A stretch of 64,000 bases of DNA. Origin: a virus. The position numbers were made by a program, and so were the translations under genes. Of the stretch, positions 54,750 through 61,590 are shown piece by piece. The stretch spans positions 1-64,000 of the IMG/VR virus record IMGVR_UViG_3300040811_000439. One strand, given 5' to 3'. Position 1 is the first letter of the stretch; each line of letters starts with the position of its first letter. The notes under the pieces were generated by a model, which ran no database searches, was not told where the DNA came from, and saw nothing but the letters and a program-made list of their open reading frames with translations.

Positions 54750-57401
54750 TTATTCAAACGAAAATAAGTCATCGAATGTGTTATTAACTCCAGTTGCCTC
54801 CTTTAGATTCCATTCCAGTATGCCAAACAAGTTGTTAATTTTGTTGTCTACAATCGTTTCTTCCATTAGTTGGTCATCAAACGGTAGCTCTTTAAACCAC
54901 TGTGGCAAGTGCGTCTCATCTGTAGGATAACCAACACTAGTATAGTTTAACGGATTTGGCTTCAATTTGCAAACAATAGTTTTCATTCCGTCAATAATAT
55001 CCATACTGTACTGATCACTATTCAGCTTCTTAAGATAGTTCCAATTGATTGCTGCTCTAACGTGTCCAGGCATGTTTGTTTTGCCTAGACGCTTTTCTTC
55101 TGCTGTAAACTTAGTTAGGTTGTTAACACGCTTAGGTGTACCTTTTTCCCAACCTGGTAGCTCTTTAAACTTATACTTGAACTCTTTGATACGTTCTACT
55201 ACGTGATCTTTTTCTTTACCAGTTAGAACTTCAAGTAGTAGTTCACTCATAAAGTCCTGCATTACCTTAGGTGTATCACTGCGCTTGAGATCAAGTCCCA
55301 TTGCTTTAACTTTGCCTGGCTTGCCTTCTGTGTCGACACGGAAACCTTCGTTATCGATTACTAGAGCTGCGTAACGTTTCTTAGTAATATACAAGCCTTT
55401 CTGTGCTACAACTTCACGCCCTGCTGCAATGATCTCGCCCATCTTGCGAGGGCAGTGGAATGCACGTTCCATAAATGCCGCAAATGTTTCGTTGACTGCT
55501 TCACCAATCTGATCGTACAGCGCAATACATTCATCTTTGCCCCAAGCCATACGTCCTTGTTCAACTTGTTCACGTACCACAGGCCAGGCTGTAAAGTACA
55601 CACTGTCTGTATCACCATAGATAATACAGTCACCTACGTGATCGTACTTCTCTGTTAACAGTTCATTTGTCTTTGCGCTCATGTGTTTGGCAATACATCT
55701 ACCTGTTAGTGTAGTGGACTGTCCGATACGATGGTCAAAGAATCTACAACCTGGATTGAGAATAGCACCATACAAACTGTTAAGGTTAATCTTCTTAACC
55801 AACTGTCGCTTGTCCCAGAACGCACGTTCTTCACCTTCTGATTCACGCATCTTAGCCTGTAGCTCTTTACGCTCTGCATACCAACGTTCTAGTAGTCCAG
55901 GAACAACGCCCTTCTTTTCATAGGTTAAAATAGTACCATTAGCACTTAGAATCCATGGGTTGTTGCTGTCAAAGATCAGTCGCCATACATCTGCTGCACT
56001 TAGAGTATCACTATCACCTGTCTCCCAGTCAATAGTAATCTCTGTACCTTTTTCCATGTTCATCACTGCTTGGTATTCTTTTGAACCAAACTCGCCTTCC
56101 CATGCATCTGCAAATGACTTTTTATCTGCCATTTTAGTTTTAACAGCATGGTCAGTTAGTACAGGGCGTAACTGTCCTACAATAGTTTCTGGAGCCATAT
56201 TAAGTGCACGAATAACACTAGGATACAGACTGTTCAAGTCAATAGATCCAATCCAATCATGCAAACCCTTCTTTGGATAAGCAACGTATGCACCTGCTGC
56301 TGTTGTAGGTTCACCAGACCTGTCTCTACGATTGGGAACAATGAGTCCCTCTTCATGTGCGTGATTTATAATTGCTTGTTCTGTCACAGCAACCGCACCC
56401 ATTGTAGTAGGCAGGAGCACTGTGTTTGCGTGTGCAAGTTCGTTACTAAGATCAATAAACTTTAGCTTATCATCTAACTTGTGTAGCAGTAGTGTGTCCT
56501 GCCTGTTGTAATCGATAAATGTGTAAAAATCTTTATTGTACAGTTGATCTAGTGTTCCTTCATATGCAACTTTACGTTCATTAAGTTCGTACTCGCCAAT
56601 TGCGTCCAAACTGTAACTGTGCATTTCGTGATAGGTGTACTTGCGATACAACTGCATGTAGTCCAAGTGCTGCCTACCAATCAAATCAAACGTAATGTTC
56701 TCTGCACCAAAACGTTCAAAGGTACGCTTCTTAGGCAACTGTCCCCACAAGCAAAATTTACGTGTATCATCTTTGCTGAGTACTCTTGTAATACGCTGTA
56801 CTGTGTAAGGAATATCATAACCTTCTGAGTTCCAGCCGCTGAGGATGTCTGCATCTTCAATCAAGTCTAAGAACGCTACTAGTAGATCCTCTTCACGCTC
56901 AAATAAGAACGTGTTACCAAAGTCTGCTACAGTTTCTTTGGCAGTTTCCATACTCATACTTTTGGGAGGAATTGCCAGTGTAATCAGCTGCCCAAGCCAA
57001 TCCAAGTATACTGTAATTGCTGTGATTGTATTGAACGGATCATCGGGTGTAGAGTATCCACGCACAGGATCAAAGTCAACTTCAATATCAAAGAAGCAGG
57101 TCTGTAACTTAGGAGCATCTATACCCAAGTAGTTGTCTGCTAGACAGCGGAATACGGGATTGATATCACTCTCCCATAAACCGTGCTTGCCGTGCATCTT
57201 TAGTTCTTTGTGGAACTCTTTACCATTGCGAGTACTGAATCTACTAACAGGATTGCCGTAGATAGTACGAAACTTACCACGTGGATCTGTATAGTAAAAC
57301 ACATAGTTGACAGGAAACTCTCTGTACTCTCTCCTGCCATCAACACGTTCTACAACGTTGATTCTGTCGTGGTCTCTATCAAAATATGCGTCTACATACA
57401 T
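54750..57401 (-). CDS. Family B DNA polymerase, T4 gp43 type (883 aa)
   Basis: Start at ATG 57401, which forms TAATG with the upstream stop; a longer reading lies inside the neighbouring genes. Proofreading exonuclease motifs: FFDIEVDFD (Exo I), ILSGWNSEGYDIPY (Exo II), IDYNRQDTLLLHK (Exo III). Polymerase motifs: IGSIDLNSLYPSVIRALN (A), KKINLNSLYGAIL (B), IIYGDTDSVYF (C), KKRYAALV after them. All catalytic acids are present. Length is close to T4 gp43 (898 aa). With the clamp next door it forms the core replisome. Confidence 0.93.
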   Translation of the reverse strand: MYVDAYFDRDHDRINVVERVDGRREYREFPVNYVFYYTDPRGKFRTIYGNPVSRFSTRNGKEFHKELKMHGKHGLWESDINPVFRCLADNYLGIDAPKLQTCFFDIEVDFDPVRGYSTPDDPFNTITAITVYLDWLGQLITLAIPPKSMSMETAKETVADFGNTFLFEREEDLLVAFLDLIEDADILSGWNSEGYDIPYTVQRITRVLSKDDTRKFCLWGQLPKKRTFERFGAENITFDLIGRQHLDYMQLYRKYTYHEMHSYSLDAIGEYELNERKVAYEGTLDQLYNKDFYTFIDYNRQDTLLLHKLDDKLKFIDLSNELAHANTVLLPTTMGAVAVTEQAIINHAHEEGLIVPNRRDRSGEPTTAAGAYVAYPKKGLHDWIGSIDLNSLYPSVIRALNMAPETIVGQLRPVLTDHAVKTKMADKKSFADAWEGEFGSKEYQAVMNMEKGTEITIDWETGDSDTLSAADVWRLIFDSNNPWILSANGTILTYEKKGVVPGLLERWYAERKELQAKMRESEGEERAFWDKRQLVKKINLNSLYGAILNPGCRFFDHRIGQSTTLTGRCIAKHMSAKTNELLTEKYDHVGDCIIYGDTDSVYFTAWPVVREQVEQGRMAWGKDECIALYDQIGEAVNETFAAFMERAFHCPRKMGEIIAAGREVVAQKGLYITKKRYAALVIDNEGFRVDTEGKPGKVKAMGLDLKRSDTPKVMQDFMSELLLEVLTGKEKDHVVERIKEFKYKFKELPGWEKGTPKRVNNLTKFTAEEKRLGKTNMPGHVRAAINWNYLKKLNSDQYSMDIIDGMKTIVCKLKPNPLNYTSVGYPTDETHLPQWFKELPFDDQLMEETIVDNKINNLFGILEWNLKEATGVNNTFDDLFSFE

Positions 57402-57625
57402 TACTTGAAAAACAATCCTATTACATATATTAACGTAATTACCACGTTGAGGACAACCAAAGATTGCTCTTTCCACAACCATCCAGCAATTGCCCAAACA
57501 GCATTACCAAAGATGAATACAACCACATACGCAGGATAAACGTTAAACGCTGCTAGTGTTGCACCTAGTATAATAAGGGCTGTGCCTAACCAGGCAAGCC
57601 ATTGATGGGGTTTGCGTTCTGTCAC
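57401..57625 (-). CDS. Small membrane protein (74 aa)
   Basis: Two or three hydrophobic segments (WLAWLGTALIILGATLAAF, YVVVFIFGNAVWAIAGWLW, VVLNVVITLIYVIGLFF) with few charged residues. Similar nicotinamide-transporter-like or hypothetical proteins occur next to phage polymerases, but this one is too short to assign. TAATG and ATGA junctions on both sides. Confidence 0.6.
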   Translation of the reverse strand: MTERKPHQWLAWLGTALIILGATLAAFNVYPAYVVVFIFGNAVWAIAGWLWKEQSLVVLNVVITLIYVIGLFFK

Positions 57626-57888
57626 TGTAGTTTGCCAACTGTGGCTAGAATGTTTTCCAATGCTGCAAGATCTTCGCTGTGCTTGGCAAAGTCTGCCTTA
57701 TAAGCAGTCTTCACTGCCTTCTTTAGTACTGCTGGCTTGATCTGCATTTCTTCTGCAATAGCCTTTACTGTGTCGTTTAGACCTTCGTTTAGGTCATCTA
57801 CTTCCTGTAGCACAGTAAGACCTTCGTTAATTAGTTGTGTTAGTTTAGCTTTTTCTTCTGAACTAAAAACTCTATCACCGTCACTCAT
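57622..57888 (-). CDS. DsbA-like double-stranded DNA-binding protein (88 aa)
   Basis: Resembles T4 DsbA (89 aa), a late-transcription dsDNA-binding protein: KAKLTQLINEGLTVLQEVDD then MQIKPAVLKKAVKTAYKADF, a helix-turn-helix-like segment, and an acidic helical end. Size and order agree. It has the best promoter in the window. T4 DsbA is involved in late gene expression; here the late-promoter motifs at several sites fit such a role. Confidence 0.7.
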   Translation of the reverse strand: MSDGDRVFSSEEKAKLTQLINEGLTVLQEVDDLNEGLNDTVKAIAEEMQIKPAVLKKAVKTAYKADFAKHSEDLAALENILATVGKLQ

Positions 57889-57911: not shown

Positions 57912-57940
57912 ATTATACGCTAGATTGTCTATTGTGTCAA
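57912..57940 (-). promoter_or_regulatory. Perfect consensus sigma70 promoter of the DsbA-like/polymerase unit
   Basis: TTGACA (57935-57940) and TATAAT (57912-57917) on the minus strand, 17-base spacer with a small dyad TAGA-TTG-TCTA (57921-57931). The -35 box is in the last codons of the upstream gene. Likely drives the DsbA-like gene, the small membrane protein and the polymerase. Confidence 0.8.
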
Positions 57941-58405
57941 CTTGGGAATCTGCTCTTGATAAGGAAAATCATAGATTTCTAGTTCTCCTCCGGGTTGGAA
58001 CTTTTTGCCTTTTCCTTTTTTCTTAAACTCGCCTACTTGTGGCGTACCTTGTTTTGATCGCTTTTGGGCACGTTTTAGTTGTTCTTCATCTTTTTTATTC
58101 CATTGGAATCTATATAAACTATCCCTTTTGTCTACCATAGCCCATAGTGTTATCCACTTGGTGCTGTCTATAGTTTCTACAGTATGATGTTTGTACAAAA
58201 ACTTGTCCGGAGTTTTATAATAAGGCTTGCCTATAAAGTCTAGATTAGTTACGAAACTTAGATAGATTGCAAGGAAAACAATAGGTACTACAACAAACTT
58301 TTGTAGTTTACATACTCTAAATAAAGGAATAATACATATTAACCCTGCAAACGCCCAAATCATAGCTAGCTGAGTAGTGCTTAAATTAAAATCGATCATT
58401 TCCAA
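57929..58405 (-). CDS. Membrane protein of the ExbB/ExbD-like cassette (158 aa)
   Basis: Two hydrophobic segments (QLAMIWAFAGLICIIPLF and FVVVPIVFLAIYLSFV) in the first 55 residues, followed by a hydrophilic domain and a very basic stretch (EFKKKGKGKKFQPGG). It overlaps the ExbD-like gene by 10 bases. Topology probably puts the basic part in the cytoplasm or periplasm beside the channel proteins. No family recognised. Confidence 0.6.
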   Translation of the reverse strand: MEMIDFNLSTTQLAMIWAFAGLICIIPLFRVCKLQKFVVVPIVFLAIYLSFVTNLDFIGKPYYKTPDKFLYKHHTVETIDSTKWITLWAMVDKRDSLYRFQWNKKDEEQLKRAQKRSKQGTPQVGEFKKKGKGKKFQPGGELEIYDFPYQEQIPKLTQ

Positions 58406-59022
58406 GATTTCCTTAGGTTATTTGTATTGTATATGATTTGCACATCGCTGTCAGTAACATTTGCTCGTTTACTGTCTTCTACTTCTATTTTAAATACACC
58501 ACGCTCGTCACCGAGTTGATCTAATCTAACCTGTCGTGTCTTTAAGGTACTAAAAGGATTTACACGTATAACTTCTACTGTAACATCAACGGGAGTTACT
58601 CGGTCGGTTGTTCCTTTGCTAAACCAGTGTACACTAACAAAATAAGTCCTTTTGTCGTCGCTACGTATAGCAACTACTTCTCTGTTAAGATAACGTGTCT
58701 GTAGTTTGCCTTCTGTATCCTGATATGTGTCATTATTTTGACCCATATCATCTCTATCCAATGTGATAAGTGCTTTGTCTTTTAGTTTAAAACTAACAAT
58801 GTTGTTGGTGTTATCCTGGACCCATAAGTCGATATCGAACTTGCTTTGATTGTCCCAGGTCATAACAATCAAATACTCTGCTTTAGGATCAATGTTTGCT
58901 TTTTTTGCAACAGGATTGATAAGGATAAATGCTAGTATGAACATGAATGTAAAACCTACAAGCAGATTAAACAATAGATCAATAAAGCCAAAGCCTGTTT
59001 TATATCTTACCTTGTTCGCCAT
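58396..59022 (-). CDS. ExbD/MotB-like bitopic membrane protein (208 aa)
   Basis: The single N-terminal membrane helix GFIDLLFNLLVGFTFMFILA has an Asp at its start, like the ion-carrying Asp of ExbD/TolR/MotB. The periplasmic part contains YLIVMTWDNQSKFDIDLWVQ, which resembles the DUF2135/YfaP pattern (W...DIDLxV.D), and a beta-rich rest. It overlaps the MotA/ExbB-like gene by 23 bases. Together they could form an ion-driven motor like ExbBD, TolQR or MotAB; the Asp must be tested. Confidence 0.62.
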   Translation of the reverse strand: MANKVRYKTGFGFIDLLFNLLVGFTFMFILAFILINPVAKKANIDPKAEYLIVMTWDNQSKFDIDLWVQDNTNNIVSFKLKDKALITLDRDDMGQNNDTYQDTEGKLQTRYLNREVVAIRSDDKRTYFVSVHWFSKGTTDRVTPVDVTVEVIRVNPFSTLKTRQVRLDQLGDERGVFKIEVEDSKRANVTDSDVQIIYNTNNLRKSWK

Positions 59023-59482
59023 TGTCCCAACTATTCTCTAGAATAACCATTTGTAGTTTTGTGAGTACACTACAAATCAAACCAATAAGAGTTGTGCTGA
59101 GAGCAGTGCTCATACCCACTGCCATATCTGCAATGGCTTCTTGTACGTTTGCTACATCTTTAACATCAAGGTCACTAAAAGCACTGTTAAGCATAAGCAA
59201 GAAGCCTGCAACCGTGCCAATCATACCTAGTGTAATCATTGCTTCGCTAGCAAACCATACGTAGTTTCCATAGTGACGATTACGTTCACTATCGTTTTTA
59301 CTAATATATCCTGTAAGTAGAGTTGCAAATACAAAAATAGCAAGTATTGCCATACTAATCTTAGTGACGTCTGCATACCACAGCGCATCCCACCAGCCCA
59401 ACTGCCATGCAATTGCGGCACCAAATGCTGATGCTGTGAATTGTATCCACCACTTGAGTAAGGGTGCATTTTTATCTAGCAT
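59000..59482 (-). CDS. MotA/TolQ/ExbB-like proton channel protein (160 aa)
   Basis: Three to four hydrophobic segments. ASEAMITLGMIGTVAGFLLM and MAVGMSTALSTTLIGLICSV match the conserved core of the MotA/TolQ/ExbB family (LLGTVxG and GxSxALxTTxxGL). The usual large cytoplasmic loop is short, giving 160 residues against about 230. Partner of the ExbD-like gene. Confidence 0.8.
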   Translation of the reverse strand: MLDKNAPLLKWWIQFTASAFGAAIAWQLGWWDALWYADVTKISMAILAIFVFATLLTGYISKNDSERNRHYGNYVWFASEAMITLGMIGTVAGFLLMLNSAFSDLDVKDVANVQEAIADMAVGMSTALSTTLIGLICSVLTKLQMVILENSWDNGEQGKI

Positions 59483-59498: not shown

Positions 59499-59822
59499 TT
59501 AGTGTTTTTCGATCCAGGAATTAAATGCTTGTAATGCTTCCTGTGGTTTTACATATGGACTTAATTTTAGACTTTCTACTTCTGAGTAAAAATCTTGTGG
59601 ATAGAATCTATCATTGTACTCAAATCCACCTGAACGTTCAAACTTAAAAACATCGTAATCTACTTTACGATTGTCATCATAGTCATGTTCTGTCATACCA
59701 AGAGCATAGACTTCGCCGTTCTTTTCAACTTTAGTTACTAATCTAAAGTCTCTACCAGCGACAAACTCCATGCCTGTGCGTTCAAGCATAGTAATTGTAT
59801 TTCTAATATCTTGTGCTGTCAT
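59499..59822 (-). CDS. Hypothetical protein (107 aa)
   Basis: Begins MTAQDIRNTITMLERTGMEF, with KVEKNGEVYALGMTEHDYDD and FKFERSGGFEYNDRFYPQDF. Acidic, alpha/beta. No known domain. Fourteen bases separate it from the cupin gene; no promoter is convincing there. Confidence 0.55.
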   Translation of the reverse strand: MTAQDIRNTITMLERTGMEFVAGRDFRLVTKVEKNGEVYALGMTEHDYDDNRKVDYDVFKFERSGGFEYNDRFYPQDFYSEVESLKLSPYVKPQEALQAFNSWIEKH

Positions 59823-59836
59823 AACAATGTATTTAT

Positions 59837-60136
59837 CTAACGCTCTACAATCTCTACAACAAGGTCTGTAGTGCCTTTGAGAATACGATGATAGGTGTTT
59901 TTTGTTATATTGATACTATCACCAGGTTTTAAGGTAATAGGTAGTTGGTTATCCATCTGCAAGCGCCAACCTTCGCCTTCAACTATAGTTACATGGCGAT
60001 CATTACGATCTCTGTGCCAAACAAGCTCTTCGCTATCAACTTCTAATGAAAATGTTCTTATTATACTTTTTTGATTGCGTAATTCACTATATGGGTGTAG
60101 GCGTCCAGCTTCTGCCCACCATGGGTTTACCACCAT
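59837..60136 (-). CDS. Cupin-fold protein (99 aa)
   Basis: WHRDRNDRHVTIVEGEGWRLQM has the cupin motif 1 pattern, and LKPGDSINITKNTYHRILKG the motif 2 (PG...p...H). Compact single-domain cupin such as mannose-6-phosphate isomerase-type C-terminal proteins; here probably a metal- or sugar-binding protein. Its ATG lies in the last codons of the head-assembly-like gene upstream. Confidence 0.75.
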   Translation of the reverse strand: MVVNPWWAEAGRLHPYSELRNQKSIIRTFSLEVDSEELVWHRDRNDRHVTIVEGEGWRLQMDNQLPITLKPGDSINITKNTYHRILKGTTDLVVEIVER

Positions 60137-61590
60137 GCTCCGCCTTTGACACCAAGTGCTTTATAACGTGGTGTGCGGCATGCCCAGTAACCTGCTTTCA
60201 TCTTGTCGTTCTTTTGCTTACACTTGTGACGTGCTACAAATGAACGCACTGCGCCTCTGTCTTTGGCTTTTACGCTTAGTCCTGATGTATCGCCCCAACT
60301 GATTTTCTTAACACGACCAGTCTTTGGATTCTTTACATATACATAGAACTTCTTAGGACCGCCACGTTTAGGTGAGTTTAGTTTAACTTTGCGTCCCTGG
60401 TACTCTGCTTCATCAAGCTCAACTTCTTCACCGATTAAATTTAAGATATATTCTTTTGGGTCTGTGTCTAATCCCATTGCATATTTCATTGCACCAGACT
60501 TGTCGCCCCTTTTCAACATTGCGGCGACCTTCATCATATCTTTTTTGTCTACACCACCAAACTTATTAGCATATGCTTCAAGTTCTTGGCCTTTTCTTTC
60601 AAACCTTGGTTTGTTTGCTTGCATCGTCGTATTTTTCATCTTACCTTCATCAAGGTCAACTTCTTCCGTCTTCATACCCAACATTTTACCAATCTTAACC
60701 ATACTCTCTTGACCACTTGATGTAACTCTGTCATATTCGTATCCATACATGTCATCAAATGCTTTTCTGGCATCTTTTATACTTTTTGCCTTAATGAGTT
60801 TATCTAAAGATTCTTGACCGCTGGGTGTCATACGCTTGCGCTCAAACTCAAGATCATCAATATGTTTTTTTATTTGATTGAGATTTTCATCAAGTGATGA
60901 TTCTTTTAATTTCTTAATCTCATAAGCGTCAACATCTAATGCTTGAAGTGCCGCGATCTTTTTGTCAAATGATCTCTTTGCATCGATCATTTTCATATGG
61001 GCAGCATCACCAGGAGTATTTTTCAACTTAGCAATTTTTGCTTTAAGAGCAACTGCCTGCTTTTTGATATCAAAGGCTTTAGCAGCGTTAGCAACTGTTA
61101 CTTCATCAAGCTCAACTTCTTCTTTTTGGGTTTTAATCCAATTAATAGCATCTCTTTTACTACCAACTGTCCTATCCCATTCCCAATTGCCTCTGTCCTT
61201 TACATAAATTTGCCATTCACCAGATGGTCGATCATTGCGATTTAATCGTGGTGTTAATTTATATTCTGTTTTACCCTGCTTCATTGTGTAAGCACCAGGT
61301 TCTCCTAGAACTTTTTTGGCCATTTCATCAAGTTCAACTTCTTCGATAGGAACATCAAGAGGAACACGCTCGCCCTCTACCATAATGCATTCGCCAATAT
61401 CTGTATCAAGTAGTTCAGCATCCTGCCAGTCTAGGTCCAGGCTTTCACGCATCTCACGCACACGAGTATAAAACTCTGTAAATGCTGCACTACCAGGACG
61501 GAACATGCATTCACTAAAAGGAACGCCACGAGCAATATGTTCTCGAATTGCTTCTTCAACTGGATTTCTTTTTAGATCACTTGCTTTCAT
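60127..61590 (-). CDS. Modular protein with EEVELDE repeats (487 aa)
   Basis: Four copies of a seven-residue motif divide the protein: EEVELDE at residues 83-89, 157-163 and 388-394, and EEVDLDE at 309-315, each preceding a different small module. The C-terminal module (VKLNSPKRGGPKKFYVYVKN to CRTPRYKALGVKGGAWW) is basic, with Cys pairs, and resembles small proteins encoded next door. LDE fits the [IL]-x-E cleavage rule of the T4 prohead protease, so it may be cut into internal head peptides. No enzyme motif. Confidence 0.6.
   Translation of the reverse strand: MKASDLKRNPVEEAIREHIARGVPFSECMFRPGSAAFTEFYTRVREMRESLDLDWQDAELLDTDIGECIMVEGERVPLDVPIEEVELDEMAKKVLGEPGAYTMKQGKTEYKLTPRLNRNDRPSGEWQIYVKDRGNWEWDRTVGSKRDAINWIKTQKEEVELDEVTVANAAKAFDIKKQAVALKAKIAKLKNTPGDAAHMKMIDAKRSFDKKIAALQALDVDAYEIKKLKESSLDENLNQIKKHIDDLEFERKRMTPSGQESLDKLIKAKSIKDARKAFDDMYGYEYDRVTSSGQESMVKIGKMLGMKTEEVDLDEGKMKNTTMQANKPRFERKGQELEAYANKFGGVDKKDMMKVAAMLKRGDKSGAMKYAMGLDTDPKEYILNLIGEEVELDEAEYQGRKVKLNSPKRGGPKKFYVYVKNPKTGRVKKISWGDTSGLSVKAKDRGAVRSFVARHKCKQKNDKMKAGYWACRTPRYKALGVKGGAWW
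60408..61344 (-). repeat. Four 22-bp direct repeats encoding EEVELDE
   Basis: Near-identical 22-bp units at 60408-60429, 60645-60666, 61101-61122 and 61323-61344; the first and third are identical (plus-strand core CATCAAGCTCAACTTCTTC). They encode the EEV[ED]LDE motif and could recombine to shuffle modules. Confidence 0.8.

Follow-up and report, generated by a model that had tools for sequence, protein, structure and literature searches.

A three-gene cassette of the ExbBD/TolQR motor class in phages and Alphaproteobacteria encodes a candidate cell-wall motor with a third subunit

RESULTS AND DISCUSSION

A compact cassette for an envelope motor

We describe a cassette of three overlapping genes, carried by phages and by bacterial chromosomes, whose products very probably belong to the ExbBD/TolQR/MotAB/ZorAB motor class. 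Judged from its genes, we moderately favor a 5:2-type proton motor that acts at the cell wall, with two novel elements, a head that probably binds metal and a third subunit. The cassette was studied in a window comprising positions 1 to 64,000 of the 72,888-base virus record IMGVR_UViG_3300040811_000439, "the window" being the whole 64,000-nucleotide stretch of DNA that was analyzed. If the motor works, these viruses bring their own engine, one that draws on the host proton gradient and acts on the envelope, and many Alphaproteobacteria hold a similarly built envelope machine that has yet to be studied. Since phage 16-3 of Sinorhizobium meliloti, one of the carriers, is a classical genetic model, the cassette is directly testable.

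Gene layout and surroundings in the window

The first-pass annotation had placed three overlapping genes at positions 57929 to 59482 beside replication genes. The open reading frame listing of the window contains them there on the minus strand, directly upstream of a DsbA-like gene and a DNA polymerase gene on the same strand. The features, from upstream to downstream, are as follows.

59499-59822, minus strand: 107-amino-acid (aa) gene of no known family (cluster c3), directly upstream of ORF1 with a 16-nt gap
59000-59482, minus strand: ORF1, putative channel (A) subunit, MotA/TolQ/ExbB-like, 160 aa (Pfam MotA_ExbB, PADLOC ZorA)
58396-59022, minus strand: ORF2, putative axle (B) subunit, 208 aa, one membrane helix plus an outer domain (AlphaFold2 model, Foldseek, conservation)
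57929-58399, minus strand: ORF3, third subunit, predicted two-helix membrane hairpin plus an OB-like domain (model, alignments)
57622-57888, minus strand: DsbA-like transcription regulator, the downstream neighbor in the window's clade (phrog_12534, 3.4e-20; phrog_639 transcriptional regulator, 2.8e-7; cluster c5)
54750-57497, minus strand: family-B DNA polymerase, gp43-like (phrog_262, 4e-195; Pfam DNA_pol_B, 8.6e-35)

ORF1 and ORF2 overlap by 23 nt. The mechanical call of ORF3 runs from 57929 to 58405 with a TTG start; the ATG at 58399 is the likelier start, because from there ORF3 would share 4 nt (ATGA) with the end of ORF2 and because homologues begin with MIDFN or MFDFN. The name DsbA for the product of 57622-57888 follows its use in T4-like phages. 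The T4-type late promoter sequence TATAAATA has 2 matches, versus 5.1 expected.

Within the window's clade, 15 non-redundant loci have the 107-aa gene upstream of ORF1; it is without a match in a Pfam search and lies outside the core trio, and it is a possible clade-specific fourth component. A 74-aa membrane protein (57401-57625), encoded between the polymerase and DsbA-like genes, matches DUF6552 and is kept in several relatives within the window's clade (cluster c12).

ORF1 carries threonines that align with the TolQ proton path

The MotA/TolQ/ExbB-like nature proposed for ORF1 in the first-pass annotation is borne out by a score above the Pfam MotA_ExbB cut-off (30.0 versus 22.9 bits; E value, 4.9e-7), which is also passed by chromosomal ORF1 members. 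The PADLOC ZorA models match ORF1 at 5e-9. The protein apparently comprises four membrane helices with a cytoplasmic loop of approximately 15 to 20 residues and no C-terminal tail. A hydropathy scan finds segments from residue 33 onward, missing the first of the four predicted helices, and the protein ends about ten residues past its last hydrophobic segment. The median ORF1 length is 159 aa in phages versus 225 aa in chromosomes, most chromosomal copies being longer.

TolQ (8odt) is among the top solved-structure matches of the ORF1 profile, and T90 and T131 of ORF1 stand opposite T145 and T178 of TolQ in the profile alignment (numbers counted from the printed alignment). These two TolQ threonines, together with TolR D23, constitute the proposed proton path of TolQR (PMC12583513). 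Among non-identical relatives of ORF1, T90 is conserved in 84/87, T131 and D38 each in 86/87, and G86 and G89 in all 87. The residues of a 5:2-motor ion path are present in the cassette, namely, threonines in two ORF1 membrane helices and an aspartate in the helix of ORF2, where D15 is placed like TolR D23 in a leucine-rich helix. Because T90, T131, and D15 (88/88) are this well kept, the site reads as intact and not as a relic.

ORF2 is predicted to join an axle helix to a TerD-like head

ORF2 had been described as a bitopic protein with a membrane aspartate and a DUF2135-like outer domain. Its AlphaFold2 model (pLDDT, 85.7) consists of a short N terminus, one helix at residues 9 to 35, and a beta sandwich at residues 50 to 191, and D15 lies in the membrane helix within 'FGFIDLLFNLLVGF'. 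Conservation of this aspartate had been set as a check on the initial description, and D15 is invariant in 88/88 non-identical ORF2 relatives, down to approximately 26% identity in the alignments. Equally invariant are W56 and G94, as well as D63, D65, D91, D92, and E115, which form the acidic set of the outer domain.

The nearest solved folds of the ORF2 model, retrieved with Foldseek, are TerD-like: 2qng (E value, 1.6e-4; probability of 1.00 but a TM score of 0.41) and 2qz7 (E value, 1e-3), with identities to TerD-like structures of 12 to 13%. The DUF2135 assignment finds support in a distant chromosomal ORF2 member, which PF09906 (DUF2135) matches with an E value of 2.6e-4 and 21.5 bits, half a bit under the cut-off of 22; the window's ORF2 itself has no DUF2135 or TerD match in Pfam. 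Structure models were limited to sequences from the window and related loci. TerD proteins bind calcium, and the invariant acids within a TerD-like fold suggest a putative metal site in the ORF2 head, probably for calcium. Membership of ORF2 in the ExbD/TolR family was considered and rejected, given its predicted TerD-like head and the lack of an ExbD match at an E value of ≤1, both in the window's ORF2 and throughout relatives set A2 (19 members). At meaningful scores, no named family was found for the window's ORF2 or ORF3.

ORF3, a putative third membrane subunit, carries a lysozyme in one clade

The third membrane protein noted initially corresponds to ORF3, which has two hydrophobic segments and conserved G59 and G120 in alignments. 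Its model (pLDDT, 84.4) contains helices at residues 10 to 30 and 33 to 58, followed by a small strand-helix domain after residue 60, whose OB-fold matches are weak (best E value, 0.04). Matches to the OB folds of toxin B subunits were taken as generic OB-fold similarity and were set aside as a guide to function. The interhelix loop is basic in the sequences compared, and under the positive-inside rule both ends of ORF3 are therefore predicted to be periplasmic.

A single marine clade accounts for 11 loci at which the ORF3 frame runs on into a GH24 (T4-type) lysozyme (among them L070, 2982-3869; L075, 2454-3356; L078, 6526-7443; L086, 4212-5117; L092, 6299-7198; and L094, 2768-3661). The fused lysozymes reach Pfam Phage_lysozyme E values down to 5.8e-50 and retain the catalytic Glu, Asp, and Thr in a FEG..YQD..WTIG motif. 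The window's ORF3 is plain, as are most phage ORF3s. In the fusions, the lysozyme part starts at an internal ATG or GTG that is preceded by a Shine-Dalgarno-like stretch. The match is of 6 bases in 5/9 tested loci (expected at 2.3% of codons; the loci are related) and of 4 bases in the remaining ones (expected at 31% of codons). Such loci may yield two products, a tethered and a free lysozyme, and a separately made enzyme would weaken the argument for tethering. Elsewhere in the phage, a GH24 lysozyme scores above cut-off in 5/17 records, many of the records being fragments and several large ones lacking the enzyme; it is also absent from the 72.9-kb, possibly incomplete record of the window phage.

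On one lysozyme-fusion contig (L094), ORF1 and ORF2 stand approximately 430 nt apart (positions 1653 to 2085), and the stretch between them holds an additional open frame (cluster c49); members of this cluster also lie near the cassette at other loci.

The trio is kept as a unit across phages

To find relatives of ORF2, we ran tblastn against annotated phages and combined it with a pattern search in IMG/VR. The latter holds an ORF1 relative in 35 contigs and an ORF2 relative in 314 stretches, so the three-gene set is not a chance arrangement. All three genes follow in the same order and on the same strand in 140 of the 141 loci with ORF2 well inside (a partly redundant set), the sole exception being a very distant locus. 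The trio is likewise present in 51/51 phage loci of a less redundant set chosen for the tree, with gaps of ≤60 nt at the two junctions in 46 and 47 of them. On the strength of this gene order, ORF3 counts as an obligatory partner of the other two genes and the trio as an obligatory unit. In annotated phage records, the window's ORF1 retrieved nothing as a query and its ORF2 matched rhizobiophages only, the marine relatives coming from IMG/VR. Carriers comprise marine contigs of up to 363 kb and phages of Rhizobium and Sinorhizobium, including temperate phage 16-3, in whose group the cassette parts are interrupted by small genes or homing endonucleases. Two rhizobiophages have a homing endonuclease gene (Seg-like, HNH) within the cassette (L172, 4267-5025; L005, 5556-6098), at the ORF1/ORF2 or the ORF2/ORF3 junction.

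The genes around the trio differ among phage groups. In the temperate rhizobiophages 16-3, RHph_X2_25, RHph_TM3_3_14B, and NV1.1.1, a trypsin-like peptidase, annotated as "typically periplasmic" in the 16-3 record, lies just upstream, and approximately 4 kb upstream RHph_X2_25 carries a lysozyme gene and RHph_TM3_3_14B a lysozyme and an endopeptidase gene. A ClpP-like gene is found just upstream in the marine lysozyme-fusion clade, and Hsp20, DnaK, and ClpS genes flank the trio in very large phages. In five marine contigs (L167, L039, L098, L087, and L088), some of >300 kb, we observe Hsp20, ClpS, ClpP, or a full DnaK beside the cassette as a proteostasis cluster.

In the window's clade, in Pootjesviridae, and in Rhizobium myoviruses, the trio lies amid replication and transcription genes; for the window, the first-pass annotation had noticed the replication genes. 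This setting suggests early or middle expression, as opposed to that of a late lysis gene, and speaks for a role in many phages that comes earlier in infection and maintains the envelope. Phage 16-3, in which the cassette falls within p038 to p042 and p040 carries the membrane Asp, has the trio in an arm described as genetically silent, with the late genes on one side and the integrase on the other; it is therefore probably dispensable in the laboratory.

Chromosomal copies and exchange between phages and hosts

In a scan of GTDB, the genomes with trio-bearing contigs belonged to SAR116, Pelagibacteraceae-like bacteria, Desulfobacterales, and candidate phyla; a few of the listed MAG contigs (L113 to L115) may themselves be phage. 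Neighboring genes encode anthranilate synthase, a luciferase-like monooxygenase, and EamA in SAR116, SUF proteins in the Pelagibacteraceae-like genomes, adenylosuccinate synthetase in Desulfobacterales, and GatB plus IPP transferase at one further locus (L126). No neighbor is fixed across 20 chromosomal loci, and the trio is therefore self-contained; in chromosomes it is a stand-alone operon, with several copies among housekeeping genes. ORF2 was detected in 51 of 337 sampled genomes of Alphaproteobacteria, the class to which SAR116 belongs (some few matches being weak), versus 1/287 and 2/247 genomes of two other phyla, so that among the groups sampled the trio is mainly alphaproteobacterial. 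Seven Azospirillum replicons have two cassette places each. The cassette thus belongs to bacteria no less than to phages.

In a tree of 88 ORF2 sequences, 8 changes between phage and cell, in either direction, are needed, and the starred branches force at least 6. The window's phage clade is joined by the SAR116 copies (support, 100/97), and the 16-3 group clusters with a chromosomal clade (support, 98/93). In SAR116 the cassette keeps the same chromosomal site, close to anthranilate synthase genes (L106, 8925-10524, and L101 to L112), a likely case of transfer between phage and host.

Relation to known motors

The known motors of this class are listed as MotAB, PomAB, ZorAB, SiiAB, TolQR, and ExbBD (PMC12204202). 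The nonflagellar part of the class is heterogeneous and includes many unknown appendages, according to a survey in whose accessible text no such trio is named (PMC12505986). With ExbBD and TolQR the cassette shares a MotA/TolQ/ExbB-family channel with two proton-path threonines, adjacent genes, and a bitopic partner with a single membrane Asp in a leucine-rich helix. Unlike them, it carries a predicted TerD/DUF2135-like sandwich in place of the small ExbD/TolR domain, with no ExbD Pfam match, as well as an extra ORF3 and an ORF1 almost devoid of a cytoplasmic domain, and it has no TonB/TolA or Pal/TolB nearby. The flagellar stators MotAB and PomAB have the same class of ion path, yet the cassette is far smaller and lacks both their torque-generating cytoplasmic loop and their OmpA-like domain.

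ZorAB of Zorya is similar in the ZorA profile matches of ORF1, the bitopic partner with its Asp, and the periplasmic head. We nevertheless rejected membership in Zorya, taking its defining features from PMC11890865: the 160-aa ORF1 lacks the long cytoplasmic tail of ZorA, no OmpA-like, peptidoglycan-binding ZorB head is matched in Pfam or PADLOC, and no ZorC, ZorD, or ZorE effector is linked. Nor was a fixed Zorya effector found among the cassette's neighbors in phages or chromosomes. As for single components, the ORF2 head is predicted to resemble TerD-like and DUF2135 (YfaP-like) domains in fold and conserved acidic residues, but it would sit on a motor axle. The fusion clade resembles SAR endolysins such as P1 Lyz in having a catalytically intact lysozyme after an N-terminal membrane anchor; unlike in SAR endolysins, this anchor is a two-helix hairpin plus an OB-like domain within a motor operon, with a possible second start. 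In the searchable literature, which holds few subscription papers, we found no phage-encoded relative of a Ton, Tol, flagellar, or Zorya motor.

Proposed mechanism and alternatives

In the mechanism that we propose, ORF1 would form a pentameric channel around a central, rotating axle of two ORF2 helices, in which Asp15 would take up protons beside T90 and T131 of ORF1. The ORF2 heads would be periplasmic TerD/DUF2135-like sandwiches, probably calcium binding. ORF3 would hold its small OB-like domain at the periplasmic face of the membrane and couple the motor to a target, most likely peptidoglycan. In bacteria, mainly Alphaproteobacteria, the cassette would serve as a stand-alone envelope device; phages, having swapped it with hosts repeatedly, would use it to manage the wall of the infected cell. 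They might benefit by preserving envelope integrity until virion assembly is complete or, in the lysozyme-fusion clade, by holding and timing the cutting of the wall.

The roles offered in the first-pass annotation fare differently against these data. The link to lysis and the cell wall gains support from the ORF3-lysozyme fusions and from the periplasmic-type protease and lysozyme genes near the trio in several rhizobiophages. A special case of the wall motor, which we regard as a tentative possibility, is lysis gated by the proton gradient, with the motor keeping a tethered lysozyme (the ORF3 fusion) or a separate endolysin either inactive or away from its substrate until holins collapse the gradient, as for pinholins and SAR endolysins. 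A membrane-anchored endolysin triggered by depolarization of the membrane is an established paradigm (PMC9025707), which we count in favor of this idea along with the intact catalytic residues of the fusions and the wall-cutting genes upstream of the trio in RHph_TM3_3_14B and RHph_X2_25. However, most phage ORF3s are without a lysozyme, the cassette is often found among replication genes, chromosomal copies stand amid housekeeping genes, and several large records lack a GH24 lysozyme. Just as tentative is the fuller scenario in which the phage's own motor positions or gates a wall-cutting enzyme, loss of the gradient (or entry of calcium sensed by the ORF2 heads) flips the envelope from protected to lysed, and the device has been exchanged with chromosomes several times.

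Similarity to ZorA also invites readings centered on phage defense. A motor that senses or blocks the envelope breach of a second phage, Zorya-like, in both phage and host, would fit the matches of ORF1 to ZorA models, the position of the cassette in the silent arm of 16-3, as is seen for accessory genes, and its movement between hosts and phages. We consider such superinfection exclusion or antiphage defense rather unlikely, as the cassette lacks a nuclease or helicase effector, the ZorA tail, and the OmpA-like head, and chromosomal copies, several of them amid housekeeping genes, have no fixed effector beside them. Counter-defense, in which the phage-encoded proteins would serve as decoys and poison ZorAB or similar motors of the host, draws on the same ZorA similarity and seems very improbable: phages retain the whole trio with every ion-path and head residue, beyond what a decoy needs, and chromosomal copies occur without phage genes nearby. 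For Zorya counter-defense, suggested at first pass, we found no positive evidence, and the stand-alone chromosomal operon weakens it. An ExbBD-like engine that energizes uptake or export across the outer membrane, as auxiliary metabolism, would agree with an engine class common to Ton and with the third inner-membrane subunit that Ton and Tol systems also have. We deem it improbable, since ORF3 is short with an OB-like domain, unlike transducers of the TonB/TolA type, and the cassette has no consistent linkage to a receptor or transporter gene.

Other genes of the window

At positions 60127 to 61590, the window encodes a 487-aa protein with repeated EEVELDE-type motifs, of which the C-terminal part alone matches phrog_7595 (unknown function). 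Searches against PHROGs also place a UDP-glucose dehydrogenase and a Nol-like carbamoyltransferase among the 52 window proteins. The same 52 proteins include a QueE-like radical SAM protein and a GTP cyclohydrolase (exact genes not mapped), which together hint at 7-deazaguanine DNA modification.
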